Positions 1 through 35,601 of a stretch of 64,000 bases of DNA are shown piece after piece. How positions within the stretch are numbered: position 1 is the first letter of the stretch; the number at the start of each line of letters is the position of its first letter. The stretch is from NCBI RefSeq assembly GCF_001543245.1, contig NZ_CP014163.1, forward strand, positions 1,284,387-1,348,386. The letters are read 5' to 3'. The DNA comes from Aerococcus urinaehominis (GTDB taxonomy: Bacteria; Bacillota; Bacilli; Lactobacillales; Aerococcaceae). Both the position numbers and the translations under genes were made by a program. The notes under the pieces were generated by a model. It saw only the letters and a list, made by a program, of their open reading frames with translations, made no database searches and was not told the DNA's origin.

Positions 1-1
1 G

Positions 2-361
2 GGCGCTGGCAACCTACCATTTTGGTTGGAACACTATGCGCCCTTGCCGATCAATAAAATATATAATATTCATAACTGGTGGTTAGAGATATTAGTGGGT
101 TACGGATGGTTAGTATTTGCCTTGTATCTGGTTATGTATGGCTTGGTTCTCTACCGGCTTAACCAGGTCCGTCACCGCCAAAATAGCAGTAAGCGTCAGG
201 TAACTAATGCCCTAATGACTTTTATGATTATTTTTATTCCGGCCTCAATTACGTCTGCGAACAATATGATGATTGAATGGCATTGGATATTTTTTGGCTT
301 AATTATTTCTTATTTGCATATCATGGAGAAAGAGTATTTGATCAATAGGAGGACGAGATGA
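2..361 (+). CDS. O-antigen ligase/polymerase family membrane protein, C-terminal part (Wzy/TuaE-like)
   Basis: Partial gene: the frame is open from the left edge, so only about the last 119 residues are seen; the TTG at 26 is probably internal. The visible protein has the HNWWLEILVGYG motif typical of the periplasmic loop and following helix of Wzy/O-antigen ligase proteins, then three hydrophobic segments and a short basic tail. Such membrane proteins polymerise lipid-linked repeat units outside the membrane. The HNWWLEIL wording and the next two genes recall B. subtilis TuaE-TuaF-TuaG (teichuronic acid), which is inference from memory of the family. It overlaps the next gene by four bases (ATGA), so the two are translationally coupled. 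Confidence 0.8.
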   Translation, partial: GAGNLPFWLEHYAPLPINKIYNIHNWWLEILVGYGWLVFALYLVMYGLVLYRLNQVRHRQNSSKRQVTNALMTFMIIFIPASITSANNMMIEWHWIFFGLIISYLHIMEKEYLINRRTR

Positions 362-1425
362 GTTTAGTTACCTTAATCAGCGAGCTATGGCGCTTTATCA
401 AAGATCATTTTCTGAAAATTATTCTGGGCGCTCTGCTTGTAGCGGGACTCGCTATGACAGGTCGGCAGTTATTAATGAATCGCTTGGAGCATCAGGATGT
501 GAGCCAGTTAGTGAATGGCCAGGAAGTAAGCCAGGATGAGGTTGAAGCAGCTAGTCAATTTTTACAAGCAGTTTTTGCTAGTCAACCGGCTGGATTTTCT
601 TTTGTAGCCTATTCAGAAGAGAATAGTATTTTTGATAATTCCTTTATCTTTGATGAGTTCTTTAGCTCGCCAGCTGTAGTGGCCGACCTGGAAGCAGCTT
701 CTGGCGTGCCCATCCAAAAAGCTATCGATGCTGAAAAAATAATGGGCTTGACTAAGACCAATGAATACCGGGGCGTCATTGCCGGCGTCCGCGATACCTC
801 TTCTAATGAAATTTATATTCGGGTCTTGGTATCAGCTGATCCAAAAGAGAACCTGGCAGTTGCTCAGGCCATTAAAAATTATATTGACCAGGGGCGGGTG
901 CCGTTTATGGAAAGCCTAAAGGTTAATTACTTAAATCCAGTAGCTATAGGGGAAGAAATTAACCTGGAGGCTTATCCAATTGTCCCAACCGAGGGGACAT
1001 TGATTGCCAGTATGCCGAGCTTAGCGGCCCTACCAATTTGGGTTTATGGGGTAGTAGGTTTTGTTTTGGGCTTATTTATAGCCACAGTTGTCTTGTTCTT
1101 GGCCCACTTATTGGGAAGAAAAATTGTCTATGCCTTCGATTATAGCTGGGATCTTGATGATAGTCAGTTTATGCTTAATCAAGCTAAGACCAGTCCAGCA
1201 GAAATTGCTGACTTAGTAACAGGCCCAGTTAATAGTCAACGACTAGTTCTAGACCAACGTACTGATTCAGCTTATACTGGCTTGACAAATCAAGTGGACC
1301 TTGATTGCCTAAATGAGGCTGTTATCATTATTCAAGCAGGTCAAACTGATAAAAATTGGTATCAAAATCAGTACAAGGCACTACAAGCTTATCCACTGGC
1401 TCTCAGAATTGTGCATTTATACTAG
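358..1425 (+). CDS. Wzz/TuaF-like polysaccharide co-polymerase
   Basis: A 355-residue protein with a membrane helix near residues 18-38, an extracellular region of about 185 residues, a second helix near 225-250 and a cytoplasmic tail of about 100 residues. Two helices flanking an outside domain is the layout of polysaccharide co-polymerases (Wzz, CpsC, TuaF), which set chain length for a Wzy polymerase. No tyrosine-kinase domain is fused and no Walker motif is seen. It starts inside the stop of the upstream polymerase, supporting a shared job. The tail is longer than in B. subtilis TuaF as I recall it, and its function is unknown. Confidence 0.65.
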   Translation: MSLVTLISELWRFIKDHFLKIILGALLVAGLAMTGRQLLMNRLEHQDVSQLVNGQEVSQDEVEAASQFLQAVFASQPAGFSFVAYSEENSIFDNSFIFDEFFSSPAVVADLEAASGVPIQKAIDAEKIMGLTKTNEYRGVIAGVRDTSSNEIYIRVLVSADPKENLAVAQAIKNYIDQGRVPFMESLKVNYLNPVAIGEEINLEAYPIVPTEGTLIASMPSLAALPIWVYGVVGFVLGLFIATVVLFLAHLLGRKIVYAFDYSWDLDDSQFMLNQAKTSPAEIADLVTGPVNSQRLVLDQRTDSAYTGLTNQVDLDCLNEAVIIIQAGQTDKNWYQNQYKALQAYPLALRIVHLY

Positions 1426-1438
1426 GAGCTGATTTGTT

Positions 1439-2200
1439 ATGACAGGAGAAAATTATTTGGTGTCGATTGTCACACCTGTTTATAATGCGGCAGCCTTTAT
1501 CGGTGAGACCATTCAAAGTGTTCAAAACCAGACCTATGAAAATTGGGAACTAATCTTGGTTAATGATTGTTCACCTGATAATAGTAGAGATATTATTTTG
1601 ACCTACCAAGCCCAGGACCAACGGATAAAATTAATTGATCTGGCTGAAAATGGAGGAGCTGCCGTGGCACGCAATGCTGGCCTTGATGCAGCCCGGGGGG
1701 ATTTTATTGCCTTTATTGATAGCGATGATGTTTGGAGCCCAACCAAATTGGCTGACCAGCTAGCCTTTATGATTGCTCATAACTATGCCTTTAGTTATAC
1801 TGATTTAGCTTTAGTGGATGTGGATGGACAGATTATTAAGCCTAGTCAAAATATTCCCAAGCAATTGACCTATCATCAGTTGTTGAAAAACACTGCTATA
1901 GCTTGTTCAACAGTTATGATTGATAAGCGCGTAACCGGTTCGTTCCATATGCCACTAGTTCGCAAAGGCCAGGATACAGCAACATGGTTGATGTTAATGC
2001 GTGAGCATGATTTGGTAGCTTACGGGTTAGATAAGGTTTTAAATTACTACCGGCAGGTGCCCGGATCTGTTTCTTCCAATCGTTTAGCTGCCCTCAAGCG
2101 CACTTGGCATACTTATTATCGTTTGGAAAGACTTCCTCTAACTAAGGCGGCCTATTATTTTGGTCATTATGTTTATAATGCCATGCGTCGTCGACTCTAA
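1439..2200 (+). CDS. Glycosyltransferase family 2 (TuaG-like)
   Basis: A 253-residue cytoplasmic GT-A fold transferase. It opens with SIVTPVYNAAAFI and ENWELILVNDCSPDN and carries the metal/nucleotide-binding IDSDDVW motif near residues 97-103. The C-terminal stretch YRQVPGSVSSNR followed by RTWHTYYRLERL matches the tail I associate with the TuaG group, and the length is also usual for TuaG. It would add a sugar from a UDP-donor to a growing lipid-linked repeat unit. It follows the co-polymerase after 13 bases with a GGAG site, so it is the last gene of that transcript before the terminator at 2225. Confidence 0.85.
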   Translation: MTGENYLVSIVTPVYNAAAFIGETIQSVQNQTYENWELILVNDCSPDNSRDIILTYQAQDQRIKLIDLAENGGAAVARNAGLDAARGDFIAFIDSDDVWSPTKLADQLAFMIAHNYAFSYTDLALVDVDGQIIKPSQNIPKQLTYHQLLKNTAIACSTVMIDKRVTGSFHMPLVRKGQDTATWLMLMREHDLVAYGLDKVLNYYRQVPGSVSSNRLAALKRTWHTYYRLERLPLTKAAYYFGHYVYNAMRRRL

Positions 2201-2224
2201 TCTAATTCGCGGTAAAAATATTAT

Positions 2225-2255
2225 GAGGCTAGCACACCAGTTAGCCTCTTTTTTT
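2225..2255 (+). terminator. Rho-independent terminator after the GT2 gene
   Basis: A perfect 7-bp stem GAGGCTA/TAGCCTC with a 10-base loop followed by seven T. It ends the polymerase-co-polymerase-GT2 transcript just before the tRNA-Arg gene. Confidence 0.85.
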
Positions 2256-2304
2256 CAGGATAATCTTAAGATAAATTCAATCTAGGCAAAGTTGTTATTT
2301 ATGG

Positions 2305-2315
2305 TATGATATAAT
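2305..2315 (+). promoter_or_regulatory. Probable -10 region for tRNA-Arg
   Basis: Overlapping TATGAT and TATAAT hexamers lie 10-20 bases before the tRNA. No good -35 is visible at the usual distance, so only the -10 is called. Confidence 0.45.
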
Positions 2316-2324
2316 TACTTTTCT

Positions 2325-2397
2325 GGTCCTATAGCTCAGGGGATAGAGCAATCGTTTCCTAAACGATGTGTCGGAAGTTCGAATCTTCTTAGGACCG
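2325..2397 (+). tRNA. tRNA-Arg (anticodon CCT)
   Basis: The cloverleaf reads cleanly: acceptor GGTCCTA/TAGGACC with discriminator G, D-arm GCTC/GAGC, anticodon stem ATCGT/ACGAT with loop TTCCTAA (anticodon CCT) and a TTCGAAT T-loop. CCA is not encoded. It decodes AGG. It sits alone between two glycosyltransferase genes, unlike the other tRNAs here, which are in the rRNA operon. Confidence 0.97.
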
Positions 2398-2432
2398 TTT
2401 TTTTATTGCAAAAAATTAAGGGAGAATCAATC

Positions 2433-3575
2433 ATGCGTATCTTGCAGATAATGAGTGGTTTCGGTGGTGGTATTTCATCCTTTATCATGAATAAGGCTAA
2501 GCAGATGCCCAAGTACGGGGTAATATTTGATGTGGCTACTTATGATGAATGTAACCAAGAATTTGAGCAGGCGATTAGTGGAACGGGTGGGCAGATTTAC
2601 CGGCTAGCTAATCCTAAAAAGGCAGGTTATCAGGCTTTTAAACGGTCGCTCTTACTAGCCTTTGAGGCCCACCATTATGATGCGGTTCACTGCCATATTG
2701 CTGGTTACCGGGCGCTCGCATATTACCATATTGCTCATCCCTTTGTTGACAATCAATTTTACCTTCATGCCCATACTGTTAGGCGACTCGATACTTTAGG
2801 TCGAAAAGGCCGCCTGTTAGCCGCAGTTGAACGCCGGATTAATTCACATTTATCTAAAGCTTACCTGGGTTGTGGTAGGATGGCAAACCAATCCTTTTAT
2901 CGCTTGGATTTACCAGAATCGGAGATGATGGTTGTACCTAATAGTATAGAGGCCCAGGATTTTATTCTGTCAGACCAAGATCAAGTAAAGCGACGAGAAC
3001 AGTTAAAAGCTCAGTTGGCTATAAATCCAAATAGCTATTTAATCGGCCATATTGGCCGACTGGTGGCGGTTAAGAATCATGAAAAAACTTTGGAAATCGC
3101 AGCTCTAGCTAAAAATCAAGGATTGAATTTGTGCTTTCTAATTATTGGGTCAGGGCCTAGAGAAAGTGAACTACAAAAACTAGTAGATCAGAGGGGTTTA
3201 AGCGACTATGTAAAATTTACAGGTCGCTTAGCGCCAATTAGTGCGTATTTTGCTGGCCTAGATGCGTTATTACTACCATCTTTTACGGAAGGTTTTCCAA
3301 CTACCATTGTCGAATCTCAGGCTGCTGGTGTACCAGCCTTGGTTTCTAATCGCGTAACTGATGAGGTAGACTTTGGTATTGATTTGGTAACTTACTTGCC
3401 CCTAGAGGCTGATAGCCAAGTTTGGTTAAAACATTTGCTAACTTCTTTAGAGCAAGCTATTCCTGATTCAGGACACCGCATGCAAGTACTAGAAGCTAAG
3501 AGGTTTACTAATCAAGCTTCTGCCCAACTCTATGTTGACTTTATGGCTGGCCGAATCAGTCACTTTCATTTATAA
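2433..3575 (+). CDS. Glycosyltransferase family 4
   Basis: A 380-residue GT-B transferase. The N-terminus MRILQIMSGFGGGISSFIMN has the glycine-rich acceptor-side loop of the GT4/EpsF group. The C-terminal half has the GT4 donor-site region, with IGHIGRLVAVKNHEKTLE, IIGSGP, LLPSFTEGFPTTIVE and AAGVPAL; the E-x7-E pattern (EGFPTTIVE) carries the catalytic glutamates. The frame is open 27 bases further upstream, but ATG 2433 follows AAGGGAGA at the right distance. It is likely a cytoplasmic transferase for the same surface polymer, read from a promoter shared with or beyond the tRNA, and followed after 14 bases by the flippase gene. Confidence 0.88.
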   Translation: MRILQIMSGFGGGISSFIMNKAKQMPKYGVIFDVATYDECNQEFEQAISGTGGQIYRLANPKKAGYQAFKRSLLLAFEAHHYDAVHCHIAGYRALAYYHIAHPFVDNQFYLHAHTVRRLDTLGRKGRLLAAVERRINSHLSKAYLGCGRMANQSFYRLDLPESEMMVVPNSIEAQDFILSDQDQVKRREQLKAQLAINPNSYLIGHIGRLVAVKNHEKTLEIAALAKNQGLNLCFLIIGSGPRESELQKLVDQRGLSDYVKFTGRLAPISAYFAGLDALLLPSFTEGFPTTIVESQAAGVPALVSNRVTDEVDFGIDLVTYLPLEADSQVWLKHLLTSLEQAIPDSGHRMQVLEAKRFTNQASAQLYVDFMAGRISHFHL

Positions 3576-3589
3576 AGGAGGGGCTAATC

Positions 3590-4951
3590 TTGAAAATGTT
3601 AAGAAACATTATGAGTGTGGCCGCATCTAACATTGTTGGTTTTGGGACCAGTTTTATCATTAACTTTCTCTTGCCAGCAATATTAGCTGTTTCTGATTAT
3701 GGCTACTATAGGGAGTACATTCTCTATACATCTTATACCTATCTTTTTAACTTGGGTTACAATGATGGAATCAATATCAAGTACGGGGGCCGAGAATTGG
3801 CAGACCTAGACCGTCAGGCTGTTAACGCGGAAAGGTCCTTTGTTACTTTTTTTCAGATTTTGATGTTTATCCTTATGCTAGCAGTGGCTCTAGCTAAGCA
3901 GGATATGGTCTTAGTTTTTTTTGCGGTGGTGACCTTTTTTGATACCATGCGAACTTACCATCAGAATTTTCTTCAAGCAATTGGCGTTTTCTCCATCTAT
4001 TCGCGAGGAAATATCTTAAAGAGTCTTTTTTACATTGGGCTTCTTCTTCTTTCTGTTTTTGTATTCAGGTCAGATAACTATTATCTCTACATTATTTTAA
4101 ATATCTTGTCATATGTTTTTATGTATATTTACTATGAATGGCATTTTGGTAAGCATTTTGGTTACAGGTTCACCTGGTCCAAGGCTGGTAAACTTAACCT
4201 CTTCAGGATTGGTTTCTTTATTTTAATTGCCAATATGTCCTTGACCTTTGTGGCTAATGTGGGGAACTGGGTTGTTAAGTGGTTTTACACGATAGAGGAT
4301 TTTGCTCGATACAATTTTCAAAATTCCATGCTTAATGTTATTCTCTTGATTGTTAATGCAGTAGGAATGGTGTTTTACAATATCATTGCCAAGCAGCGTG
4401 AAAATAATACCTACATGAATATTATCAAGCAGACTTCCTTGATTCTGGGTATTATAGGGGGCTTAGCCTTCTTTGCGCTTAAGTTAATTATTGTCAACTT
4501 CTTACCTCAATATTTGCCATCAGTCAGTCTGTTATCGGTAACCTTTATTGCCGTTCCCTATATTATGTTGTCGCGGATTTTAATCGCTAACCTCTACAAA
4601 TCGAGAACTTCTGAAATGGTTTATTTTAGGGATAGTTTGATATATGCAGGCTTATCATTAGCCTTTGTCATGGCAGCTCATTTCGTTAGTCATACTATGC
4701 TGGGGGTAGCTTCGGCGACTAGTCTTTGTTACCTATTCTGGTATATCTATGCGACAGAATTAAAATTTCCTTACCTGAAGAATACAGGTAGAGAGTGGCT
4801 TTTGATTGCTAGCCATATTCCTGCTTTTTATTTGGCTGCCAATTATCTGAATCCCTATCTTGGAGCCCTGGTTTACTTAGCCTTTCTCTTAGGTGTAGTC
4901 TTGTGCTTCAAAGAAGATTTTAAGACTATTTGGGGAACATTAAAAAATTAA
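3590..4951 (+). CDS. Polysaccharide flippase (Wzx/MATE-like)
   Basis: A 453-residue, very hydrophobic protein with about 12-14 predicted membrane helices and the N-terminal SVAASNIVGFGTSFIINFLLP pattern typical of Wzx/RfbX/TuaB exporters. It would flip lipid-linked repeat units to the outer face of the membrane for the Wzy-type polymerase encoded upstream. TTG 3590 is chosen because AAGGAGG ends eight bases before it; the ATG at 3596 would be 14 bases away. It closes the polysaccharide cluster and is followed by a terminator at 4972. Confidence 0.87.
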   Translation: MKMLRNIMSVAASNIVGFGTSFIINFLLPAILAVSDYGYYREYILYTSYTYLFNLGYNDGINIKYGGRELADLDRQAVNAERSFVTFFQILMFILMLAVALAKQDMVLVFFAVVTFFDTMRTYHQNFLQAIGVFSIYSRGNILKSLFYIGLLLLSVFVFRSDNYYLYIILNILSYVFMYIYYEWHFGKHFGYRFTWSKAGKLNLFRIGFFILIANMSLTFVANVGNWVVKWFYTIEDFARYNFQNSMLNVILLIVNAVGMVFYNIIAKQRENNTYMNIIKQTSLILGIIGGLAFFALKLIIVNFLPQYLPSVSLLSVTFIAVPYIMLSRILIANLYKSRTSEMVYFRDSLIYAGLSLAFVMAAHFVSHTMLGVASATSLCYLFWYIYATELKFPYLKNTGREWLLIASHIPAFYLAANYLNPYLGALVYLAFLLGVVLCFKEDFKTIWGTLKN

Positions 4952-4971
4952 TGATATTAAACTTTTCAGTA

Positions 4972-5000
4972 AGATCGGTTTTTTGAACCGGTCTTTTTTA
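4972..5000 (+). terminator. Terminator after flippase gene
   Basis: Hairpin AGATCGGTT/AACCGGTCT with one G-T pair and a short T-rich loop, followed by TTTTTA. Confidence 0.85.
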
Positions 5001-5023
5001 ATTAGCCAGGCTTGTTAGCACAT

Positions 5024-5040
5024 TGTAATCTAATTGCAAT
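5024..5040 (+). promoter_or_regulatory. WalR-like direct repeat upstream of the glucosaminidase gene
   Basis: TGTAAT-CTAAT-TGCAAT matches the WalR (YycF) consensus TGTWAH-N5-TGTWAH at 11 of 12 fixed positions. It lies 21 bases before a TATACT -10 (5062-5067) that has no recognisable -35, as expected for an activator-dependent promoter. Binding is inferred only. Confidence 0.5.
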
Positions 5041-5104
5041 ATGAAAGGATTTGGCCTGTGTTATACTTTTTAAGAATATTTTATGAAGAAGGGGATTAGT
5101 CATC

Positions 5105-7129
5105 TTGAAACGAACACCAGCTTATATTTTTGCCTTAGCCTCAAGTTTAGCCCTCAGTGCGACAATGGCCCAAGAGGTATCTGCTGCTGAGACACAAATT
5201 AATGACCAAGTACAGCAAGAAGCTGTTACTACTAACCAAAGCAAGCCAGCTGATAATGATTTGAGCGCTAGTGACCAAGCTGCCTTAGACCAGGCCCGAG
5301 ACCTAATTGCCCAGGTAGCTGCTGAACAAACTGGACAAGAAGTAAGAAACACAAATGCTTCTGCTGAAGCACTCGACCAAAATTCAGTGACGGATGATGG
5401 TCAAGACAGTGAGTCTAGTGTAGCAGGCAGCACAGAGCCTAACTTAATAAGTAGTCAGGATCAGGCTGCTAGTGACCAGTCAGTTACTAGTGGGGAGCAA
5501 AAAACTATTCTTGCCGATAATGGCAAGCAATCACCTATTAAAGTGAACGACCAGGTTGAAATTAAAAATACCTCAGTGGCTGCTAAAGTATCGGCAGACC
5601 AATTAGCTGACTTGGACCGCATCCAAGGCCGTGACCGCTTTGAAGTTGCAGCTAAGGCTAGCCAGTTAGGCTGGGACAAGTCTGATACGATTCTATTAGC
5701 TAATGGCTACAAGGGTGCTGATGTGCTTACAGGCACTCCCTTGGCCCACGCTCATGACATGCCAATCCTCTATACTAAAGATACATGGATTCCTGAGGTA
5801 ACTTTACAGGAAATGCGCCGTCTGCAAGTAAAACATGTTGTCTTATTGGGAGCCCAGGCTAGTGTGTCTGATAAGGTCGCCGAGCAACTATTGGCCTTAG
5901 ATTATCAGGTTAGCAGGATTGGTGGTAAGAATCGCTATGAGCAATCTGTACTTATTGCCCGCCAAATGGAAAAAGTGACTGGTAAACCAAAGCAGGCCTT
6001 TCTGGTTAATGGTTATAAATTTGCGGATGCCTTAAGTATCGCGACAGCTGCTGCTAATATGCAGGCACCAATCTATTTAACTAAAGGTGACCAATTAGCG
6101 GATGAAATTATTCCAGCATTGGATCAAATTGGCCAGTTGACTATTATTGGCTCACAAGCTTCGGTATCAGACCAGGTTGTTAAACAAGCCCAGAATCTGG
6201 GTGCCAAGGTCGACCGAATTCCAGGTAAAAACCGTTACCAAGTGAATCGTAATATCTTAAAGAAATACCATGGTAACCAACCGGTTTTATATGTGGCCTC
6301 TGGTGAGATCTTCTCAGATGCGCTACCAGCCGGCAATTTAGCCGCTAAACATGGCCATGCTGTCCTGTTGGTTAAAGATGAGAATGTTTATAATGTTAAG
6401 GAGCAAGTCGAATATGCCCTTAGCCAAGATGTTAAAACTTATCTTTTCTTCGGTGGCACTAAGACCCTAGGTACTAAGACTGCTCAATGGTTTAAACAAC
6501 CACAAGCCTTTTTAGACCAGATTAAGGCTAATGAGGCAGCGGCAGCAGAAGCTAAACGTTTGGAAGCTGAGCGTAAGGCGCAGGCGGCCAAGGCCAGTAA
6601 AACAGTTACAGTAGGCAAGACTAATAGTAGCTTCCTAAATAAATTAATTGTCCCAGCGATGGAGCTGGCTCATGAAAATGGTCTTTACGCTTCAGTCATG
6701 ATGGCCCAAGCTGCTTTAGAGTCTGGTTGGGGAACAAGCCTCTTGTCTCGGGAGCCAAATCATAACTTATTTGGTATTAAAGGGGCCTACCAAGGACAGA
6801 GCGTTAATATGCAAACTTTAGAAGACTCTGGTGGCCGTAATTATTATTCAATTCGGGCTAATTTCCGCAAGTATCCTTCTTATCGAGAATCGCTTCAAGA
6901 TTATACCAACCTACTTAAAAACGGCTTAACTTCAAATCAACGTTTTTATGCGGGTGCTTGGAAGACCAATACCAATAGCTACCAGGAGGCTACCCGCTAT
7001 TTAACTGGTCGCTACGCAACTGATAGTGCTTATGCTAGCAAGTTAAACCGCATTATTAGTCAAAATAACCTAACGCAATATGACACACCAAAAGATGCAA
7101 CAGGTAAAATTCAGGTCGTGGTTAAATAA
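5105..7129 (+). CDS. Secreted CWB2-anchored N-acetylglucosaminidase (GH73)
   Basis: A 674-residue secreted wall hydrolase. Residues 1-27 are a signal peptide ending near VSA-AE. Residues 28-165 are an acidic Q/S/D-rich linker. Three CWB2 (PF04122-type) repeats run about 171-262, 263-362 and 363-465, each with a D/NRY or DRF motif and an ANGYKGADVL/NGYKFADALS-type strand. A Lys/Ala/Glu helix leads to a GH73 domain at about 510-655 containing QAALESGWGTS, with E539 the likely catalytic acid, and NLFGIKG. It should cut the GlcNAc-MurNAc backbone while bound to an anionic wall polymer. TTG 5105 follows AAGGGG. It has its own promoter and terminator. Confidence 0.9.
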   Translation: MKRTPAYIFALASSLALSATMAQEVSAAETQINDQVQQEAVTTNQSKPADNDLSASDQAALDQARDLIAQVAAEQTGQEVRNTNASAEALDQNSVTDDGQDSESSVAGSTEPNLISSQDQAASDQSVTSGEQKTILADNGKQSPIKVNDQVEIKNTSVAAKVSADQLADLDRIQGRDRFEVAAKASQLGWDKSDTILLANGYKGADVLTGTPLAHAHDMPILYTKDTWIPEVTLQEMRRLQVKHVVLLGAQASVSDKVAEQLLALDYQVSRIGGKNRYEQSVLIARQMEKVTGKPKQAFLVNGYKFADALSIATAAANMQAPIYLTKGDQLADEIIPALDQIGQLTIIGSQASVSDQVVKQAQNLGAKVDRIPGKNRYQVNRNILKKYHGNQPVLYVASGEIFSDALPAGNLAAKHGHAVLLVKDENVYNVKEQVEYALSQDVKTYLFFGGTKTLGTKTAQWFKQPQAFLDQIKANEAAAAEAKRLEAERKAQAAKASKTVTVGKTNSSFLNKLIVPAMELAHENGLYASVMMAQAALESGWGTSLLSREPNHNLFGIKGAYQGQSVNMQTLEDSGGRNYYSIRANFRKYPSYRESLQDYTNLLKNGLTSNQRFYAGAWKTNTNSYQEATRYLTGRYATDSAYASKLNRIISQNNLTQYDTPKDATGKIQVVVK

Positions 7130-7142
7130 TATATCTAATGAA

Positions 7143-7183
7143 GGGGTCTGCCATTTAAGAGGCGGACTCCTGTTTTGATTTTT
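7143..7183 (+). terminator. Terminator after the glucosaminidase gene
   Basis: A 10-bp stem GGGGTCTGCC/GGCGGACTCC with two G-T pairs, followed by a T-rich run. Confidence 0.75.
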
Positions 7184-7215
7184 ACCTGCTAGGCCAATAT
7201 GGGATTTTTCCTGAA

Positions 7216-7232
7216 TGTCATTTAATTGTAAT
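7216..7232 (+). promoter_or_regulatory. WalR-like direct repeat upstream of the amidase gene
   Basis: TGTCAT-TTAAT-TGTAAT matches TGTWAH-N5-TGTWAH at 11 of 12 positions. It ends 33 bases before the -10 TATGAT (7266-7271), which has a partial -35 TTGTGA (7243-7248) at 17-base spacing. Confidence 0.5.
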
Positions 7233-7300
7233 CTTTTCCTCGTTGTGAGGATTAAATTCTAGTGTTATGATAATCTTAAGAAAAACTAAAGGAGACCATC

Positions 7301-9310
7301 ATGAAACTTAAACCTTACTTAAAAGTAACCCTATTTTCTAGTGCCTTACTTTTTTCTAGCCTACTAGTTGACCAGGTAAAGGCTGAGGAGGCTCCTGGAC
7401 AAAGTCAAACTCAGCCAGCTAGTCAGAATGTATCCGCTACGGATAGCGATTCAGCTAAGAAGACTGAAAATGAGTCGACACCAACAACACCCGCCGACAC
7501 TAGCCAAGAAAATGTGAGCAGTGAAACAGGGCTAGCAGATAAAGGCTCTGAGAAAGATGATACTAAGCCTAATTCAGAATCTGATGCTGCTGGTGAAAAG
7601 AAAACAGATAGCCAACCTGAGCAATCTAAGCAAACTGACCAGCAGGTGGATGCTGGTGATAAGGAGAAAGAATCAGAAAAGCTTAACCCTAAAGAATCAG
7701 CTGAAGCTAAGGCCCTTTACCAACGTGTTGTAACTAAAGGGACGGCACCGAAAGGCGAGACAGCTCTAGCCAAAGAAAGTAGCGAAGGCATAACAGTTGA
7801 CCGTGTTCATGGTGCCAACCGCTTCTCTAACGCGGTAGCTATCAGCCAAGCTGGTTGGGAAAAATCTGATTATGTTTTGATTGCTAACGGCTATATGTAT
7901 GCCGATGCCTTAACAAGCGCACCTTTAGCTGCTGTTTATAATGCGCCACTACTTCTAACTAAGGATAAAACTATTGAAGATACGACCTTAGCTGAAATTG
8001 AGCGTCTACAAGCTAAACATATTATTTTACTTGGTGGAACTAAGTCTATCCATGAAGATATTTCTAAAGTTTTAGAATACCAGGGATATGCTGTGCGGCG
8101 GATTGGCGGTAAAAACCGTTACGAGCAAGCAGCCTTAGTAGCTGAAGAAGTTATGGCAGCGACTGGTAGCCGGGATGCCTTCCTTGCAAGTGGTGAACTC
8201 TTCTCTGATGCCTTATCTATCTCTAATATTGCCGCAGCCAAGAAATTACCGATTTACTTAACTCGGGGCAACCGTTTAGAGCAAGCGGTTATTGATGCCA
8301 TCCCTAAAGTAAACACTTGGACGCTTATTGGTGGTGAAAAGACCATCAGTAAGGCGGTCGAAAATCGTTTAACTAGCCTTGGTGGTCGTGTGGTTAAACG
8401 TTTTGAAGGTAAGAACCGTTATGAAGTTAACCGTAATATTACAGATTGGTATTATAACGATCGTTTGAGCCATTTCTATGTTGTTTCAGGTGAGCTCTAT
8501 TCAGATGGTCTGCCGGCAGCTATGTTAGCAGCTAAAAAAGGATCAGCCTTACTATTAGTTAAAAATAACCAGGGAACTTTAAAAGAACAAACAGATTTTT
8601 CTGTGGGTAAACGTAAGATTAAGAAGTATACAATTATTGGTGGTGCGACAACTGTTTCGCCAGAAACAGAGGTTACCTTAAATACACCTAAGGCCATTTT
8701 TTCACCTAAGAAAAAAGAAGTTAATACTATGAACCAGGCTGCTGAGTTATTAACTTATATTATGATTGCTGGTCATGGTGATGGCGACCCAGGTGCTACT
8801 GGTCGGATTGCTAAGGGTGAAAACCGTTATATGAAAGAAAATCTTTTCCCAGCCATGCGTAAATATTTGCCAGCTGGAGTGAATGTTGTCTGGGTAGAAA
8901 ATCAAAACGTTTATGCCCGTGATACCTTGTTGCCGCTTGTAAAAGAGCACGGTGGTGCTGATAAAACAGAAGTGATTGAATGGCATTATGACTGGGCAAA
9001 TAATCCTAGTCGAAGTGGTGGTCATGTCATTATTAGTGGTCGGTCAAATGCTGACCAATTGGACTTAGCTATCCGCGATGCAATTCAAAAGAATGTTGGT
9101 CTGGATCACTCTTATAACTTCAAAGGCCATAGTGGTATCTCAGGTCGTAATGATCTACGTAATCCTAACCGCGCTCAAAGTGGCGATGTTAACTATCGTT
9201 TAGTGGAGCTCGGTTTTGGTTCGAGTCCGGCAGATGCCAATCATATGGTAAATAATGTTAACCAATATGCTAAAGATTTAGTCAAAGCAATTTTTGGTAA
9301 AACTAAATAA
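7301..9310 (+). CDS. Secreted CWB2-anchored N-acetylmuramoyl-L-alanine amidase
   Basis: A 669-residue secreted protein. The signal peptide covers about residues 1-29 (cleavage near VKA-EE), followed by an S/T/E/K-rich linker to about 160. Three CWB2 repeats follow at about 167-260, 261-355 and 356-455. The C-terminal 180 residues are an amidase_3-type zinc domain: AGHGDGDPGATG (H492), E507, EWHYDW (H562) and RLVELGF (E636) fit the metal-binding and catalytic residues. It should release stem peptides from MurNAc. The repeats are closely related to those of both neighbours although the catalytic domain is unrelated. ATG 7301 follows AAAGGAGA. Confidence 0.88.
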   Translation: MKLKPYLKVTLFSSALLFSSLLVDQVKAEEAPGQSQTQPASQNVSATDSDSAKKTENESTPTTPADTSQENVSSETGLADKGSEKDDTKPNSESDAAGEKKTDSQPEQSKQTDQQVDAGDKEKESEKLNPKESAEAKALYQRVVTKGTAPKGETALAKESSEGITVDRVHGANRFSNAVAISQAGWEKSDYVLIANGYMYADALTSAPLAAVYNAPLLLTKDKTIEDTTLAEIERLQAKHIILLGGTKSIHEDISKVLEYQGYAVRRIGGKNRYEQAALVAEEVMAATGSRDAFLASGELFSDALSISNIAAAKKLPIYLTRGNRLEQAVIDAIPKVNTWTLIGGEKTISKAVENRLTSLGGRVVKRFEGKNRYEVNRNITDWYYNDRLSHFYVVSGELYSDGLPAAMLAAKKGSALLLVKNNQGTLKEQTDFSVGKRKIKKYTIIGGATTVSPETEVTLNTPKAIFSPKKKEVNTMNQAAELLTYIMIAGHGDGDPGATGRIAKGENRYMKENLFPAMRKYLPAGVNVVWVENQNVYARDTLLPLVKEHGGADKTEVIEWHYDWANNPSRSGGHVIISGRSNADQLDLAIRDAIQKNVGLDHSYNFKGHSGISGRNDLRNPNRAQSGDVNYRLVELGFGSSPADANHMVNNVNQYAKDLVKAIFGKTK

Positions 9311-9339
9311 TCTAATAGCAGGTAAAACTAATTTTTTTA

Positions 9340-9370
9340 AATCCTAACCCTAATCGGGTTAGGATTTTTT
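9340..9370 (+). terminator. Terminator after the amidase gene
   Basis: A perfect stem AATCCTAACCC/GGGTTAGGATT with a short loop, followed by TTTTT. Confidence 0.9.
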
Positions 9371-9468
9371 GCTTACTTTTAGAAAACTTTAGAAATACTT
9401 GATATAAAATTAGCTTCTTGTAACTCAGCTAACACATTGTTACAGAAGATGTAATAATAGTATGTTTT

Positions 9469-9485
9469 TGTTTACTTTTTGTAAA
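9469..9485 (+). promoter_or_regulatory. WalR-like direct repeat upstream of the NlpC/P60 gene
   Basis: TGTTTA-CTTTT-TGTAAA matches TGTWAH-N5-TGTWAH at 11 of 12 positions and ends 32 bases before a TATAGT -10 (9518-9523). A second, imperfect pair TGTTAC-N6-TGTAAT lies at 9438-9455. The 251-base gap 9311-9561 otherwise holds only the preceding terminator and this promoter. Confidence 0.45.
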
Positions 9486-9561
9486 TTGGGCGCAACCTCA
9501 GCAAATATTGCCTATGGTATAGTTTATAAGTAAATTTCAAGACAAGTTTTTTGGGGGAAAT

Positions 9562-11232
9562 ATGTTTATTAATCAATTATCAACAAGTACTAAAGTTCGT
9601 TATCTAGCCCTAGCTAGCTCATTTGTTTTATCAGCCTTTATGGGCCAAGTTGTCCAAGCTGATGAAGCGACTAGTTCTAGCTACCAATCAGTAGCTGATC
9701 AAGTCAATAACCCTGCTATTGAAATGGCGCAAGACCAAGCTGTGACGAATCAATTAGCAGCTGAGTCTAGTAATCAGACAAATATTGAACATCAAGCTAT
9801 CAACCAAAATCAAGAGCAAGTAGAAACAAATAGCCAGGTTGAGCTTGAACAGCCAGCTACAGATATTCAACCAGTAAATAATGTTGTGCCACAAGCCACG
9901 CAAAAACGTATACAAGGCACAAGTGAGGCCCCTCAAGTTGACCGCATCCAAGGTGCTAATCGCTTCGATAATGCGGTTGAAATGAGCCAGGCCGGCTGGG
10001 TAGAGTCGGAACGTGTTTTACTAGCCAATGGCTATCAATATGCAGATGCATTAACTGGCGCACCATTAGCTGACGTATATAATGCACCGCTGTTACTAAC
10101 AAAGGCTGACTCGATTTCAGATAATACAATCAATGAAATTAAACGCTTAAAGGCCCAAGAAGTTATTGTGCTAGGTGGTCAGGCTAGTATCTCTAAAGCA
10201 GTCACTGATAGCCTAGTAGCTAATGGTATTAATTTCCGTCGCATTGGTGGACGCAATCGCTACGAACAGGCTAGTCTAGTTGCCAAAGAAATTGCTAAGG
10301 TTAATGGCACAGCCAAGGAAGCCTTCTTAGTTTCTGGTACTGCTTTTGCTGATGCCCTATCAGTTTCTACGATTGCAGCGCAAAAACAAATGCCTATTTT
10401 ATTAACACGGCCTAATCAACTCGACCAACACACAGTAGAGGCAGCCACAGGTATCAATAAATTTGTTATTGTTGGTGGCCAAGCAACTATCTCGGATGCG
10501 GTCAGCAACCAATTAAAAGCTCTGGGTAAAACGGTAAAGCGTATTGATGGTAATAACCGGTACGCGGTTAATCGTAACGCCTTAACAAAATATGGCGTCT
10601 CGCCACAGCATAGCTATGTTACTTCAGGTGAAGGTTTCTCAGATGCTCTACCGGCTGCTGTTTTAGCGGCACGGACCGGCAGCAATCTACTCTTAGTGAA
10701 AAATGATAATCTTGGTAACTTAAAAGAACAGTTAAAATATATTGTTAATGAAAAAGGTGTTAAGAGCTATACGTTATTAGGTGGAGAGAAGAGCTTATCT
10801 AAGCAAACTCTGCAAGCTTTCCAGGCACCGCAAAAAACAATAGCTTATCAACCACCAGTAGTAACTAAGCGAGAGACTATAGTCAACGAGGCTCATAAGT
10901 ATATTGGTACCCCTTATGTATGGGGTGGCAGAACTCCTAGTGGTTTTGATTGCTCTGGGTTTACCCAATATGTTTACCGTCAAGTCACTGGTAAAGACAT
11001 TGGTAGCTGGACAGGTGCTCAGCAAAATGCAGGCCCGCGCATCAGTGTTGGAGCAGCCAAGCCAGGTGATCTTCTTTTCTGGGGTGGCTATGGATCAACT
11101 TATCACGTGGCAATTTCTCTAGGCAATGGTCGCTATATTCACTCACCACAACCTGGATATACGGTAACCACTGCTAGTATCAGTCCATATTTTAATCCTA
11201 GTTTTGCTCTCGATATGTCAAACTGGGTTTAG
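9562..11232 (+). CDS. Secreted CWB2-anchored NlpC/P60 endopeptidase
   Basis: A 556-residue secreted protein with a signal peptide (about 1-33, ending VVQA-DE), a Q/N/E-rich linker to about 120 and three CWB2 repeats at about 127-218, 219-313 and 314-415. A C-terminal NlpC/P60 domain starts near 437. C464 in FDCSGF, H515 in YHVAI and H527 in IHSPQ form the expected papain-like Cys-His-His set. Such domains cut D-iGlu-meso-Dap/Lys or nearby stem-peptide bonds. The repeats (DRIQGANRF, RIGGRNRYEQ, NNRYAVNRN) are paralogous to those of the two genes before it. A GGGGGAA site precedes ATG 9562. Confidence 0.9.
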   Translation: MFINQLSTSTKVRYLALASSFVLSAFMGQVVQADEATSSSYQSVADQVNNPAIEMAQDQAVTNQLAAESSNQTNIEHQAINQNQEQVETNSQVELEQPATDIQPVNNVVPQATQKRIQGTSEAPQVDRIQGANRFDNAVEMSQAGWVESERVLLANGYQYADALTGAPLADVYNAPLLLTKADSISDNTINEIKRLKAQEVIVLGGQASISKAVTDSLVANGINFRRIGGRNRYEQASLVAKEIAKVNGTAKEAFLVSGTAFADALSVSTIAAQKQMPILLTRPNQLDQHTVEAATGINKFVIVGGQATISDAVSNQLKALGKTVKRIDGNNRYAVNRNALTKYGVSPQHSYVTSGEGFSDALPAAVLAARTGSNLLLVKNDNLGNLKEQLKYIVNEKGVKSYTLLGGEKSLSKQTLQAFQAPQKTIAYQPPVVTKRETIVNEAHKYIGTPYVWGGRTPSGFDCSGFTQYVYRQVTGKDIGSWTGAQQNAGPRISVGAAKPGDLLFWGGYGSTYHVAISLGNGRYIHSPQPGYTVTTASISPYFNPSFALDMSNWV

Positions 11233-11249
11233 AAAACATTGCAATAAAA

Positions 11250-11289
11250 AACAAGCGGATAGCCCTCGTTTGAGAGCTATCCGCTTGTT
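11250..11289. terminator. Bidirectional terminator between convergent genes
   Basis: A perfect 14-bp stem AACAAGCGGATAGC/GCTATCCGCTTGTT with a 12-base loop, preceded by a run of A and followed by T-rich sequence. It serves the hydrolase gene from the left and the small membrane protein gene from the right. Confidence 0.9.
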
Positions 11290-11303
11290 TGTATATATTT
11301 ATT

Positions 11304-11594
11304 TTATTCCAGACCATTAGCAGCTTCTAGTGCATCAATTCTTGATTCTAAATCACTAATTCGCTGGTTAATATCCTGGTTTTGAATAGTTTGAGAGCTA
11401 GGTAGACTCTCTTGATTATTTCCAGGGAAGTAAATGGTGACTAACCAAATACTCAAGAAAATAATAATTAATGCCATCAGTACATAAATCCAATTCAGGC
11501 GGGGTGAACCTTTTTCCAGGGTCTCAATTGTTTCATCTACCTGGGCAGGTATTTCAATATTAACATTTTCAAAGTGATAACGTTTTTTACGCAT
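11304..11594 (-). CDS. Small single-pass membrane protein with C-terminal coiled coil
   Basis: A 96-residue protein of no family I recognise. A basic start (MRKKRY) leads to a 30-residue acidic stretch, a membrane helix at about 35-58 (WIYVLMALIIIFLSIWLV) and a C-terminal heptad region INQRISDLESRIDALEAAN likely to form a coiled coil. ATG at 11594 is preferred over an in-frame GTG at 11606 because GTGAGG there acts as its ribosome binding site. It lies directly downstream of the aminopeptidase gene, probably on the same minus-strand transcript. Topology would place the coiled coil outside if the positive-inside rule holds. Confidence 0.7.
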   Translation of the reverse strand: MRKKRYHFENVNIEIPAQVDETIETLEKGSPRLNWIYVLMALIIIFLSIWLVTIYFPGNNQESLPSSQTIQNQDINQRISDLESRIDALEAANGLE

Positions 11595-11615
11595 AAGACA
11601 CCTCACTTTACTTGA

Positions 11616-12857
11616 TTAGAAGGCCCATTCTCCTTGTCGGAAAATAGGGACTCGGTTACCATCTTGGTCAATGGCGTCAATATCCATATCAGGGCTACCA
11701 ATCATAAAATCAACGTGAACATGGCTGCGGTTGATACCACGGTCGATTAACTCTTGGTCAGTCATTTTCTCACCGCCCACAATATTGGTTGGATAGGCAG
11801 CACCAATTGCAATATGATTAGAGGCATTTTCATCAAAGAGGGTCGTGTAATAGGTCAAGTTACTTTGGGAAATTGGTGATGAATGAGGGACTAAGGCCAC
11901 TTCACCTAAACCGCGACCGCCTTGGTTATTGTTAACTAAGTCTTGGATAATATCTTGGCCGGTATCCGCAGTAATTTCAGTAATTTGTCCAGCCTTAAAG
12001 TGGGCCTTAATGCCGGTTATCATTGCACCCGCATAAGATAGCGGTTTGGTAGAAGTCACGTAACCTTCAATATTGCGCGTATCAGGAGCGGTGAAGACCT
12101 CCTCTGTTGGCATATTAGCAATAAAGGGCTGACCAGCGGGGTTGAAGCTTTCTGCACAGGTCCAAATATGTTGATCAGGTAGACCAATAGTAAGGTTAGT
12201 TCCTGGTGCTTGATAGTGGAGGGCTTTAAATTGTTGGTCATTCAGATACTTGGCTTTGGCTTCTAGGTTGCGGCAGTGGCTATCCCAGGCTGCAATAGGA
12301 TTCTCTTGATCGATTCGACAAGTTTTAAAGATAGCTTGCCACAGGGCAGCGACACAGGCCTCCTCATCGTCTGCCAATTCAGGAAAAACATGCTTAGCCC
12401 AAGCATAATCTGCTGCGGCAGCAACTGTCCATTTAACTTGATCTTTCATGGTTGCTTCTCGTCTAACCTTTAGGGCCTGACCGCGCTCACTTTGGACTTG
12501 AGAAATTTTATCACTAGAAATGCCGTTTAGATTGTCTGGGTCTCCTGACACAATTGACAAACGAGAAATTTTTTTGTTGAGAATGAGATCTTCTTCACGG
12601 GCAATGGTGTAATCAGGGACATGGGCCAGCTCAGGGCTATCCACATGTTCATAGTCTAGTCGTTGTAGATGGTCATCGGTCCAGGTAAAGTAAACCCGAC
12701 TTGCACCAGCCTGATAAGCATAATCAGCTAAAAGGCGGGCCAGAGGAGCCTGGTTAATGGCGATATAGACCATCACGTGGTCTCCCTTTTTAACATTGAT
12801 GCCTTTTTCAATTAAAAGGCGGGCATATTTAGCTAGGTTATGGTTAAAATCAGACAT
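11616..12857 (-). CDS. pepS: Aminopeptidase, M29 family (PepS/AmpS-like)
   Basis: A 413-residue cytoplasmic metallopeptidase, the usual length for the M29 (AmpS/AmpT/PepS) family. The N-terminal half (LAKYARLLIEKGINVKKGDHVMV) and the C-terminal metal region match. Candidate ligands lie in EVFTAPDTRNIEGYV, GRGLGEVALVPHSSPIS, HIAIGAAY and SHVHVDFMIGSPDMDIDA. It removes N-terminal residues from peptides. Its ATG abuts the flavodoxin stop codon (TAAATG), so the two are cotranscribed and probably translationally coupled. No signal peptide is present. Confidence 0.92.
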   Translation of the reverse strand: MSDFNHNLAKYARLLIEKGINVKKGDHVMVYIAINQAPLARLLADYAYQAGASRVYFTWTDDHLQRLDYEHVDSPELAHVPDYTIAREEDLILNKKISRLSIVSGDPDNLNGISSDKISQVQSERGQALKVRREATMKDQVKWTVAAAADYAWAKHVFPELADDEEACVAALWQAIFKTCRIDQENPIAAWDSHCRNLEAKAKYLNDQQFKALHYQAPGTNLTIGLPDQHIWTCAESFNPAGQPFIANMPTEEVFTAPDTRNIEGYVTSTKPLSYAGAMITGIKAHFKAGQITEITADTGQDIIQDLVNNNQGGRGLGEVALVPHSSPISQSNLTYYTTLFDENASNHIAIGAAYPTNIVGGEKMTDQELIDRGINRSHVHVDFMIGSPDMDIDAIDQDGNRVPIFRQGEWAF

Positions 12858-13319
12858 TTACTCGCCTCCCTGTAGTTCTAAAACTTTGGCTTGACATTGT
12901 TGTGCTAAGTTCTCCAAGGCTTCTATATCTTCTGCTTCTGGATTTAGGTCAACTAAAACAGATGGTCCTGCTTGAGTAGCCCCTTGCTCTAAAAAGCGTG
13001 CCTCAAAATCAAGCACTGACTGGCAGAATTTCTCGTAAAAATGGTCACCTGATCCCATAGTTGCAAAAATTTTTCCGCCCAGATCTAATTCGGCTAAATC
13101 TTCATACAGGTCAACAATTTCATCAGGTAAATCAGCATCAGTGCCATAAGTATAAGTAGCCACGGCACAAATATCATAATCGAGAAAGTCTTCACCGTAT
13201 ACCGAACTACATTCTTCCATTTCAGTTTCAATGCCTAAATTTTCTAGGGCTTCAGTAAAAACATCGGCAATTTCTTCAGTATTTCCGGTTAAACTTGCAA
13301 ATACGACTAAGGCTTTCAT
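12858..13319 (-). CDS. Flavodoxin
   Basis: A 153-residue FMN protein with the phosphate-binding loop FASLTGNTEEIADVF at residues 6-20, the YTYGTDADLPDE loop and the GSGDHFYEKFC segment seen in short-chain flavodoxins. It carries electrons between cytoplasmic redox enzymes; the partner is not apparent here. The frame is open to 13373, but the 18-residue upstream extension has no ribosome binding site, while AAGGGA sits just before ATG 13319. It is the first gene of a minus-strand operon with the aminopeptidase. Confidence 0.9.
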   Translation of the reverse strand: MKALVVFASLTGNTEEIADVFTEALENLGIETEMEECSSVYGEDFLDYDICAVATYTYGTDADLPDEIVDLYEDLAELDLGGKIFATMGSGDHFYEKFCQSVLDFEARFLEQGATQAGPSVLVDLNPEAEDIEALENLAQQCQAKVLELQGGE

Positions 13320-13357
13320 AGGGTCCCTTCTTTCTATCCTTTTGATGTCTAGTATAG

Positions 13358-13394
13358 CAAAAAAAATAGCCACTTACGATTAAAGTAAGTGGCT
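13358..13394 (-). terminator. Terminator of the GntR gene
   Basis: A perfect 10-bp stem AGCCACTTAC/GTAAGTGGCT with a 7-base loop. On the minus strand it is followed by eight T. It also lies just upstream of the flavodoxin start. Confidence 0.88.
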
Positions 13395-13401
13395 GGTGTG
13401 A

Positions 13402-14100: not shown

Positions 14101-14280
14101 AAAACCCCTCTTTCAGTTACTATACAATTATAGCAATTCTATAAGAAAAGCCTAACTATGTGTTAGAAAAAAAGGTTTTTATAAACAATTCTTAAACTAT
14201 CGGTCAAAAAAGTAAATTTGCTATTAATAGTATGGTTGAGATAAAATTAACAAAGAAGATTACACTAGAAAGGGATTATT

Positions 14281-15108: not shown

Positions 15109-16437
15109 ATGAAGAAAAACGAGCAAGCGGACGCCTATCAAAACCAAAATGATAGGGTGAGCTACCGCAAGAGACAACCACGGAAAAAAAGGCGTTGGCC
15201 CTGGGTGGTCGCTCTGATACTAGTGGTGATTGTCGGTGGGATGGCTTTCCTGTTAGGCCGCCGCTTGGTAGGCTTCACCAATACAATTTATAATCGGGTG
15301 GATCGCGATGATATGCGTGGTTCCAAAGTAGCGCTAACTAAGGGTGAACCGGTAACTATTTTGCTAGCAGGTATTGATAACGGTGCCTTGTTTTACGAAG
15401 ATGTGAAGGATGGCCGTAGCGATGTGATGATGTTAATCACCATCAATCCGGAAAAAAATCAGACCCTTATTGCTAGTATTCCGCGTGATACCTTGGGGCC
15501 CATGGGTCGTACCGATGAGTTTGATAAGCTTAATCACGCCTATATGAATTATGGGATGACTGGCACCATTAATTCTTTGCAGCGGTGGGCAGATGTGCCA
15601 ATTGATCATTACGTAGAAGTAAATATGCGCGCCTTTATTGATGTCATTGATGGCATGGGGGGCTTGGAATTAACACCCACCCAGACCTTCACCCAGAATG
15701 GTGTTCATTTTACCAAGGGCCAAACGCAACGTTTTAATGGTGAACAAGTTATGCACTATGTTCGGATGCGTAAGCAAGATCCGGAGGGAGACCTGGGACG
15801 TCAAAAACGTCAACAACAAGTAGTTAGGGCGGTCATCAAGGAAATTGTATCTCTGGATACTTTGCGCCAATTAGATCGAATACTTGATACGCTTGGTCAA
15901 AATTTAAAAACTGACCTGACACGGTCAGATATGATTGCTCTCCATAATAATTATTTAGCAGCCCTGCAAAATAATGATAGCTATGTTGTTAGTGATACTC
16001 GAGATTTGAACCTTTATTTTGGTTATTATCTGTATGTTACTGAAGCACAACGCTTGGATCTATCTAATCATTTAAGAGCTTTATTAGGCCTGTCTGAAAG
16101 CCAATCAGCTATTGTCTACCCGGTTGAGTTTAATGTGCCTTTTGAATACTTTCCCGTTGAGGACTATGATTATGATGGCTACTATAGCGATACAGATATG
16201 TTGATTGCACCGGGGGTTTATAAGCAAAGCGAACTGAAGACTGAAATTCTTAACCAGTTTGGTAGCTTACCTCTTTACTTACCTGAAAGCAGTATCTTGG
16301 TACCTTTACCTAATCAAGATGTGCAAGGGTATGATGATAGCCAGGAAATTCCTAATAACCAAGCAGATATAGGTGTTGAGGAAGGTTGGTATCCTGAGGA
16401 AGTGCCTGTCTATGAATATGAGGGAGATTTTTACTAA
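15109..16437 (+). CDS. LytR-CpsA-Psr (LCP) family wall-polymer ligase, long form
   Basis: A 442-residue membrane-anchored protein. A very basic cytoplasmic head (residues 1-28) precedes one membrane helix (about 29-50) and an extracellular LCP domain from about 82. The domain has ILLAGIDNG, RSDVMMLITINP, ASIPRDT and the ADVPIDHYVEVNM segment with conserved Asp/Arg residues that bind polyprenyl-pyrophosphate. LCP enzymes transfer wall polymers from lipid carrier to peptidoglycan. Unusual is the last hundred residues, an acidic Tyr/Asp/Pro/Glu-rich tail absent from the following paralogue. AGGAGC precedes ATG 15109. Confidence 0.92.
   Translation: MKKNEQADAYQNQNDRVSYRKRQPRKKRRWPWVVALILVVIVGGMAFLLGRRLVGFTNTIYNRVDRDDMRGSKVALTKGEPVTILLAGIDNGALFYEDVKDGRSDVMMLITINPEKNQTLIASIPRDTLGPMGRTDEFDKLNHAYMNYGMTGTINSLQRWADVPIDHYVEVNMRAFIDVIDGMGGLELTPTQTFTQNGVHFTKGQTQRFNGEQVMHYVRMRKQDPEGDLGRQKRQQQVVRAVIKEIVSLDTLRQLDRILDTLGQNLKTDLTRSDMIALHNNYLAALQNNDSYVVSDTRDLNLYFGYYLYVTEAQRLDLSNHLRALLGLSESQSAIVYPVEFNVPFEYFPVEDYDYDGYYSDTDMLIAPGVYKQSELKTEILNQFGSLPLYLPESSILVPLPNQDVQGYDDSQEIPNNQADIGVEEGWYPEEVPVYEYEGDFY

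Positions 16438-34041: not shown

Positions 34042-35601
<1,560 letters not shown>

Follow-up and report, generated by a model that had tools for sequence, protein, structure and literature searches.

The stretch of Aerococcus urinaehominis DNA considered here (64,000 nucleotides of contig NZ_CP014163.1, referred to below as the window) contains three adjacent genes for cell-wall hydrolases, all read in one direction, whose products share one type of anchor, a triplet of CWB2 repeats, and carry three different cutting domains. The first gene (5105..7129, plus strand) begins at a TTG codon and encodes a 674-residue protein with a C-terminal GH73 glucosaminidase domain; the second (7301..9310, plus strand) encodes a 669-residue protein with an Amidase_3 domain of the phage-endolysin type, and the third (9562..11232, plus strand) a 556-residue protein with an NlpC/P60 endopeptidase domain. 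The cutting domains match the Pfam families Glucosaminidase (120.7 bits), Amidase_3 (45.6 bits) and NLPC_P60 (92.4 bits). CW_binding_2 is matched at 163.7, 168.9 and 176.6 bits, respectively, scores that refer to the whole protein, with three stretches in each, and that compare with a Pfam cut-off of 24.9. Coordinates and domain matches agree with an initial annotation, made from the sequence alone, of three neighbouring proteins with one kind of CWB2 anchor and three kinds of enzyme. All eight catalytic residues named there are found at their positions: Glu539 in the GH73 protein; His492, Glu507, His562 and Glu636 in the amidase; and Cys464, His515 and His527 in the NlpC/P60 protein. The low-complexity linkers described there are borne out by composition in the second protein (Glu and Ser 13% each) and in the third (Gln 18%, Ala 12%). 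The N-termini are signal-like as judged by eye, and the G+C content of the three genes is 0.42–0.44, compared with 0.414 for the window.

The heads of the three proteins are genuine CWB2 triplets by Pfam, by profile search and by predicted fold. In the triplet alignment they span 5606..6520, 7790..8704 and 9931..10845, all on the plus strand. A profile built from eight triplets recovers Cwp6 (E 6e-55) and Cwp8 (E 2e-46) of Clostridioides difficile, and an AlphaFold2 model of the head of the NlpC/P60 protein (pLDDT 90.6) matches Cwp6, Cwp8 and SlpA in Foldseek with TM values of 0.83, 0.85 and 0.86, normalised by query length. The repeats of C. difficile carry a PILL motif, the proline of which is reported to be dispensable (PMC4973711). 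Among the first and second repeats of the eight triplets, a strict P[ILV][ILV][LV] is present in 8 of 16, the other eight having one aromatic residue, as in PIYL; third repeats keep the hydrophobic run, with proline in two of eight. The repeat signatures quoted in the initial annotation hold overall, with small variation: the first repeat reads DRIQGRDRF, DRVHGANRF or DRIQGANRF. In a tree of 51 repeats (17 first, 17 second and 17 third) that includes the nine of the trio, each of the three positions occupies one side of a branch. Window repeats in the same position are 43–60% identical, while those within one protein are 25–32% identical. Because the repeats sort by position, the evolutionary unit is the triplet and not the single repeat, and the tree of nine repeats proposed with the initial annotation, built here within the larger set, is silent on duplication; single-repeat trees were set aside for this purpose.

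The trio lies directly downstream of a polysaccharide locus, whose order, flanks included, is purR, polymerase, Wzz-like gene, family-2 glycosyltransferase, tRNA-Arg(CCT), group-1 glycosyltransferase, wzx, CWB2 trio, w11304, pepS, flavodoxin, gntR, map and a LytR-CpsA-Psr (LCP) gene. All of the elements detailed here are on the plus strand. The end of the Wzy-type polymerase gene occupies 1..361 (whole gene, L054:464-1747); its product matches Wzy_C with 49.1 bits and is 49% identical to the polymerase of G009, a second genome of the genus with a CWB2 gene. The open frame at 358..1425 matched no Pfam family and is taken to be a putative Wzz-like polysaccharide co-polymerase; a homologue (35–39%) is found at the locus in all nine other genomes of the genus that were examined. 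A family-2 glycosyltransferase (1439..2200, 138 bits in Pfam) is followed by the tRNA-Arg(CCT) gene found by a tRNA scan (2324..2398), by a group-1 glycosyltransferase (2406..3575, by Pfam), which in most relatives examined precedes the polymerase, unlike here, and by the Wzx-type flippase (3590..4951; Polysacc_synt 25.5 bits, just below the cut-off of 28.2). The wzx gene ends 153 bases before the first CWB2 gene. The LCP ligase (15109..16437, 139.5 bits in Pfam), a candidate for polymer attachment, has a homologue on the same flank in five of the nine other genus loci examined.

Terminator-like hairpins were found by scanning between wzx and the first CWB2 gene (4971..4995), after the GH73 gene (7142..7171) and after the amidase gene (9339..9367), all on the plus strand, and a long palindrome of 19 pairs after the NlpC/P60 gene (11249..11290) was scored as a terminator on the minus strand; in total the scan gave 26 hairpins in 12.9 kb, with 10.5 expected. 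With hairpins after wzx and after each gene of the trio, each of the three therefore looks like its own transcription unit. Upstream of every one is a site that resembles a WalR box with one mismatch, all on the plus strand: 5013..5029, beginning at −92 of the GH73 start; 7216..7232, at −85 of the amidase start; and 9469..9485, at −93 of the NlpC/P60 start. The consensus, TGTWAH-N5-TGTWAH, was the sole motif tried and was chosen because WalR governs autolysins in Bacillota. Boxes with at most one mismatch precede 3 of 3 trio genes, compared with 6 of 102 control genes (Fisher p 4.5e-4); the CWB2 gene of G009 has a box without mismatch on the other strand, and its inclusion gives p 4e-5. Random stretches of 250 bases contain such a box in 69 of 2000 cases. 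As a positive control, among other hydrolase genes of the genus the box precedes 7 of 7 NlpC/P60 genes without mismatch and 4 of 6 GH73 genes with one; the GH73 locus L105, whose frame runs off its stretch, and hydrolases on the other strand were left out of the comparison. Five of the 13 matches in the entire window, two of them overlapping, sit in the three short stretches upstream of the trio. A box on every CWB2 gene was considered and ruled out, since this genome's remaining four CWB2 genes have best sites with 2, 2, 3 and 2 mismatches.

The cutting domains have different affinities. The GH73 domain is 55–66% identical to GH73 enzymes of the genus, most of which have LysM in the same open frame, and 34–48% identical to the other CWB2-GH73 enzymes seen. 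In a tree its place is inside the genus group (15 rows, 88/97), with a GW-GH73-CHAP protein of G005 as closest neighbour (90/90). The NlpC/P60 domain shares 58–67% identity with the twelve genus enzymes that match it most closely, which also mostly carry LysM, and lies inside a group of ten genus enzymes (88/96); support for both the GH73 and the NlpC/P60 group is below the tool's star, and matches covering fewer than 110 and 80 query residues, respectively, had been dropped. A short NlpC/P60 gene, apparently interrupted here (L025:5502-5810), has counterparts near metG in several relatives.

The amidase domain, by comparison, is best matched by an endolysin family, phrog_489 (E 1.4e-24), and also by phrog 2742, 435 and 12727, which likewise bear the label endolysin. 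Within the order sample, the four relatives that match best are 50–53% identical; the three that were inspected have phage-like surroundings by eye, and a PHROG holin lies beside the two whose neighbour was tested. Identity to staphylococcal phage enzymes is about 36% among the matches listed. The nearest phage record is that of a 'Stenotrophomonas' phage (56%; L180, OM735687.1). The host label of this record may deserve a check, as Gram-positive genera give their names to all but three of the 271 matching records, the exceptions being two from Stenotrophomonas and one from Pseudomonas. No phage lysis module surrounds the amidase gene, whose neighbouring open frames are the two other CWB2 hydrolases. 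Thus the enzyme has a domain homologous to phage endolysins of the phrog_489 type, but here this domain follows a signal-like N-terminus and a CWB2 head in one protein, and the gene lies outside a lysis module.

Domain swapping, in which homologous heads would carry catalytic domains of different origin, is well supported by these relationships, and this part of the initial proposal of local duplication with domain swapping stands. The catalytic domains also bear on the idea that the trio is an ordinary set like the Cwp proteins of C. difficile, which came in as intact genes from Bacillales or Clostridia, without any swapping in this lineage. A review does tabulate CWB2 with type-3 amidase, with NlpC/P60 and, as CWBD2, with GH73 (PMC6403190), and the matches that follow Alkalibacterium (43%) are mostly to Bacillales, at 35–40%. 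Such an origin nevertheless seems very improbable, given that the GH73 and NlpC/P60 domains are nearest to genus enzymes and that the amidase domain is unlike those of the four complete CWB2 amidases of the order (in G009, G183, G108 and G080), which match Amidase_3 with 157–171 bits; that of G234, whose gene is cut by a contig end, scores 66.3 bits. A genome-wide exchange of LysM for CWB2 was also considered and ruled out: there are 15 LysM matches here and 10–24 across 15 genomes of the genus. A LysM-GH73 gene and a LysM-P60 gene are still present in this genome.

The whole genome (1.83 Mb, one contig) has 21 CWB2 repeats in seven triplet proteins, all above the Pfam cut-off. Of the four outside the trio, one has a C39-like peptidase, one a GINT1_N propeller and one a CAP domain, and the remaining one has no catalytic domain. 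The triplet fused to the GINT1_N-type propeller (L027:8853-11018) has a paralogue without CWB2 (L027:1242-2285), with a family-2 glycosyltransferase gene between the two, and the same stretch codes for a repetitive surface-type protein of 2218 residues with LPATG near its end, by eye (L027:13229-19885). Elsewhere, the window contains an rRNA operon followed by a long tRNA array (34044-40173).

Whether the head was duplicated within the trio was examined with trees of complete triplets. A mixture-model tree of 44 domains (each kept as one hit that scores above 170 bits and spans over 270 profile positions; L119 duplicates L112 and was dropped) groups the trio heads with the head of the CWB2 amidase of G009 (97/90); in a simpler tree of 26 of these domains the same group has 44/88. 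The repeat tree described above drew on 17 of the 44. A clade of the trio alone is neither found nor rejected (AU p 0.468), and the same holds for a clade of all seven heads encoded here (p 0.385) and for one that adds the head of G009 (p 0.203). Local duplication of the head, the other half of the initial proposal, is thus neither shown nor excluded by the trees.

CWB2 is rare and patchy. Within the family to which the window belongs it was found in 2 of 76 genomes (2 of 15 in the genus), in a second family in 4 of 27, and in the order sample in 5 of 395, namely the window genome and the four carriers from the second family. The six carriers are the window genome (G000), G009, and the second-family genomes G080, G108, G183 and G234, and in all six CWB2 hydrolase genes lie beside a polysaccharide locus, which is related in five. 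The only CWB2 gene of G009 codes for an amidase and flanks the same locus on its other side, at the purR end. A Wzx 52% identical to that of the window is directly followed in G234 by three CWB2 hydrolases (C39, GH73 and amidase), and in G183 two start 0.3 kb after a polymerase that is 32% identical to that of G009. The polymerase gene of G108 ends about 0.5 kb from a contig end, on another contig than the CWB2 amidase, and a lone GH73 domain of 184 residues lies near the start of the contig with the amidase (L113:1-1060), where G183 has a full CWB2-GH73 gene; the layout may thus be the one seen in G183. In G108 and G080, CWB2 genes lie beside LCP and sugar-dehydrogenase genes. Those of G080 are spread across a polysaccharide-rich region of 70 kb that has no homologue of this polymerase. 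The proteins with CWB2 triplets in G080 include a nuclease-like protein, a subtilase and a CAP protein (L114-L117).

By a count made by eye, polysaccharide genes are found within about 10 kb of 17 of the 24 CWB2 proteins in the six genomes (G000 3/7, G009 1/1, G183 2/2, G108 1/1, G234 4/6, G080 6/7). For comparison, near polysaccharide genes there are none of the four LysM open frames of the window genome with listed places, nine of the 15 matches having been listed.

The polymerase itself tends to accompany CWB2 outside the family of the window. Its profile matches strongly (E ≤1e-60) in 47 of 395 genomes, 41 of them from that family; beyond it, three of four CWB2 carriers have the polymerase, compared with 3 of about 315–331 other genomes (p 1.3e-5 or 1.5e-5 for two assumed sizes of the family's share of the sample). 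Within the second family three genomes have both, one has CWB2 only (G080), one the polymerase only (G094), and 22 neither (Fisher p 0.005). These statistics are uncorrected for kinship, and four of the six rows in the polymerase profile come from CWB2 carriers. The stricter idea that the polymer locus occurs only with CWB2 is refuted in the genus, where wzx is matched at E <1e-140 in 10 of 15 genomes, the window genome included, and CWB2 is present in two. The initial view of the trio as a set matched to one wall polymer is therefore favoured by position and by co-occurrence outside the family, but finds no such co-occurrence within the genus.

Instead of a separate gain, the trio could be what is left of an ancestral unit of CWB2 hydrolases and polymer genes that almost every lineage has lost. 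In two trees the triplets found in the genus and in G234 do form one clade (98/90 and 99/94), and G234 shares with the genus a map gene close to the locus. Against this, the rarity of CWB2 would demand many losses. In a MetG tree, moreover, G009 groups with four CWB2-negative genomes (100/100), apart from G000. The CWB2 gene of G009 is unlikely to be a contaminant, because MetG is encoded on the same contig. The CWB2 genes also occupy different edges of the locus in these two genomes. Shared retention is, on balance, a rather doubtful account.

Another explanation is that the heads bind a different wall polymer, such as a teichoic acid made elsewhere, and that the locus is a hot spot for accessory surface genes, marked in the genus by tRNA-Arg(CCT). 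The tRNA gene is present in the locus stretch of all ten genus genomes scanned, the window genome included, with variable genes downstream of it; in G011 it lies near purR. Locus edges vary as well. The w11304 edge is common to five of the eight CWB2-negative genus loci examined: wzx adjoins w11304 in G014, while in G010, G016, G017 and G018 glycosyltransferase or membrane-type genes take the place held here by the trio; in G007, G008 and G011, wzx has different neighbours. Most genomes with the locus lack CWB2, and in this genome just three of the seven CWB2 genes are at the locus. A hot spot does not readily account for the presence of CWB2 beside such a locus in every carrier, including the four of the second family, and no tRNA was detected in the five second-family stretches scanned. 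No open frame matching the trio enzymes was found in the eight CWB2-negative genus loci, many open frames of which are otherwise unannotated. A search of positions 1-16000 gave neither direct repeats of at least 25 bases nor a repeat of the tRNA of at least 11 bases; as the G+C content of the trio is also near that of the window, a recent mobile-element origin was rejected. We consider the hot-spot explanation unlikely.

The reading that we prefer, with a probability of roughly 0.6, is that the trio is an accessory, WalR-linked set of secreted autolysins anchored on the polymer of the adjacent locus. Each protein would be exported and held non-covalently in the wall by its three-repeat head. 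The ligand would most likely be the wall glycan made by the polymerase, flippase and glycosyltransferases next door, which the LCP ligase may attach to peptidoglycan. Each enzyme is predicted to cut a different bond, in the glycan chain, the amide linkage or the stem peptide, the cutting domains having apparently come from a phage endolysin in one case and from hydrolase types of the genus itself in the other two. The genes, apparently three separate transcription units, would probably answer to WalR, a regulator of wall homeostasis, and the enzymes may be used jointly in growth or cell separation. Domain content, predicted head fold, catalytic-domain relationships, position, terminator-like hairpins and boxes can be read from the sequence; secretion, binding to the locus polymer, cleavage, WalR control and joint use are what we infer from it.

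Several observations weigh against this proposal. Eight genomes of the genus have the wzx of the locus but no CWB2, and many genomes of the family have the polymerase (41 strong matches in the order sample); the locus can therefore do without CWB2. In G094 the polymerase occurs and CWB2 does not, and in G080 the reverse is true. Relatives have other accessory genes at the locus edges, so an insertion hot spot could account for the adjacency. The locus was picked because CWB2 adjoined it, and the co-occurrence figures take no account of kinship. As to WalR, the number of boxes in the window is at chance (13 found, 15.3 expected), the 102 control genes were taken regardless of whether the upstream region is intergenic, a box with at most one mismatch precedes only 5 of 14 CWB2 genes in the second family, and the four of seven CWB2 genes of this genome that lie elsewhere have none at that level.

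The closest parallel is the Cwp family of C. difficile, in which three tandem, non-identical CWB2 repeats likewise anchor varied enzymes. There, too, CWB2 genes lie beside the locus for a polymer, PSII, or AP (PMC4973711), as they lie beside a polysaccharide locus in all six carriers here. WalR of C. difficile is reported to raise the expression of six S-layer protein genes, including the amidases cwp16 and cwp17 of the Cwp family (PMC9210968), a precedent for the WalR control proposed here. The differences are also considerable. Pfam recognises no S-layer protein among the seven CWB2 proteins of this genome, and the neighbouring locus is of the polymerase/flippase type, unlike that of PSII: PSII-type mannose genes, a second uppS and a MurJ-like flippase were not among the open frames of the locus (L054, window 1-4951), to which the search was confined. 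The separate transcription units suggested by the hairpins and the phage-type amidase domain set the trio apart as well.

Bacillus subtilis CwlB (LytC) likewise joins CWB2 to a cell-wall amidase, though the catalytic domain here is of the phage-endolysin type, and the lytABC genes of B. subtilis lie near wall-teichoic-acid genes. CWB2 was identified in that amidase and is placed especially in Clostridiales, Bacillales and Micrococcales (PMC5817068). Within the genus, GH73 and NlpC/P60 autolysins have related catalytic domains and, in most cases, LysM together with WalR-like boxes upstream; they thus have LysM, which binds peptidoglycan, where the trio has CWB2, which in C. difficile binds a wall glycan.

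Some papers mention both CWB2 and Lactobacillales; none of those searched has CWB2 together with Aerococcus or Alkalibacterium. The suggestion that such an arrangement is undescribed in Lactobacillales can be upheld insofar as it is new for the lineage; it is not new in kind, several enzymes on one CWB2 triplet being the known logic of the Cwp family (PMC5817068). What is new is that, in the six carriers found, CWB2 hydrolase genes adjoin a polysaccharide locus.

An autolysin with a cutting domain of the phage-endolysin type and a non-phage anchor bears on the exchange of parts between endolysins and autolysins. More generally, and tentatively, since we hold it to be somewhat short of an even chance, CWB2 heads and a glycan locus of the polymerase/flippase type may form a matched anchor-ligand pair that crosses families of Lactobacillales, such that polymer-bearing lineages take up CWB2 hydrolases, fit them with cutting domains of their own or of phages, and put them under WalR. 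If this is true, the adjacent locus would be, to our knowledge, the first non-PSII-type pathway to be identified for a CWB2 ligand. The rare, patchy carriers, with a related locus in five of the six, amount to a natural experiment on CWB2 recognition outside C. difficile, and relatives that have the same locus without CWB2 provide ready-made controls, so that the match between anchor and sugar is testable.

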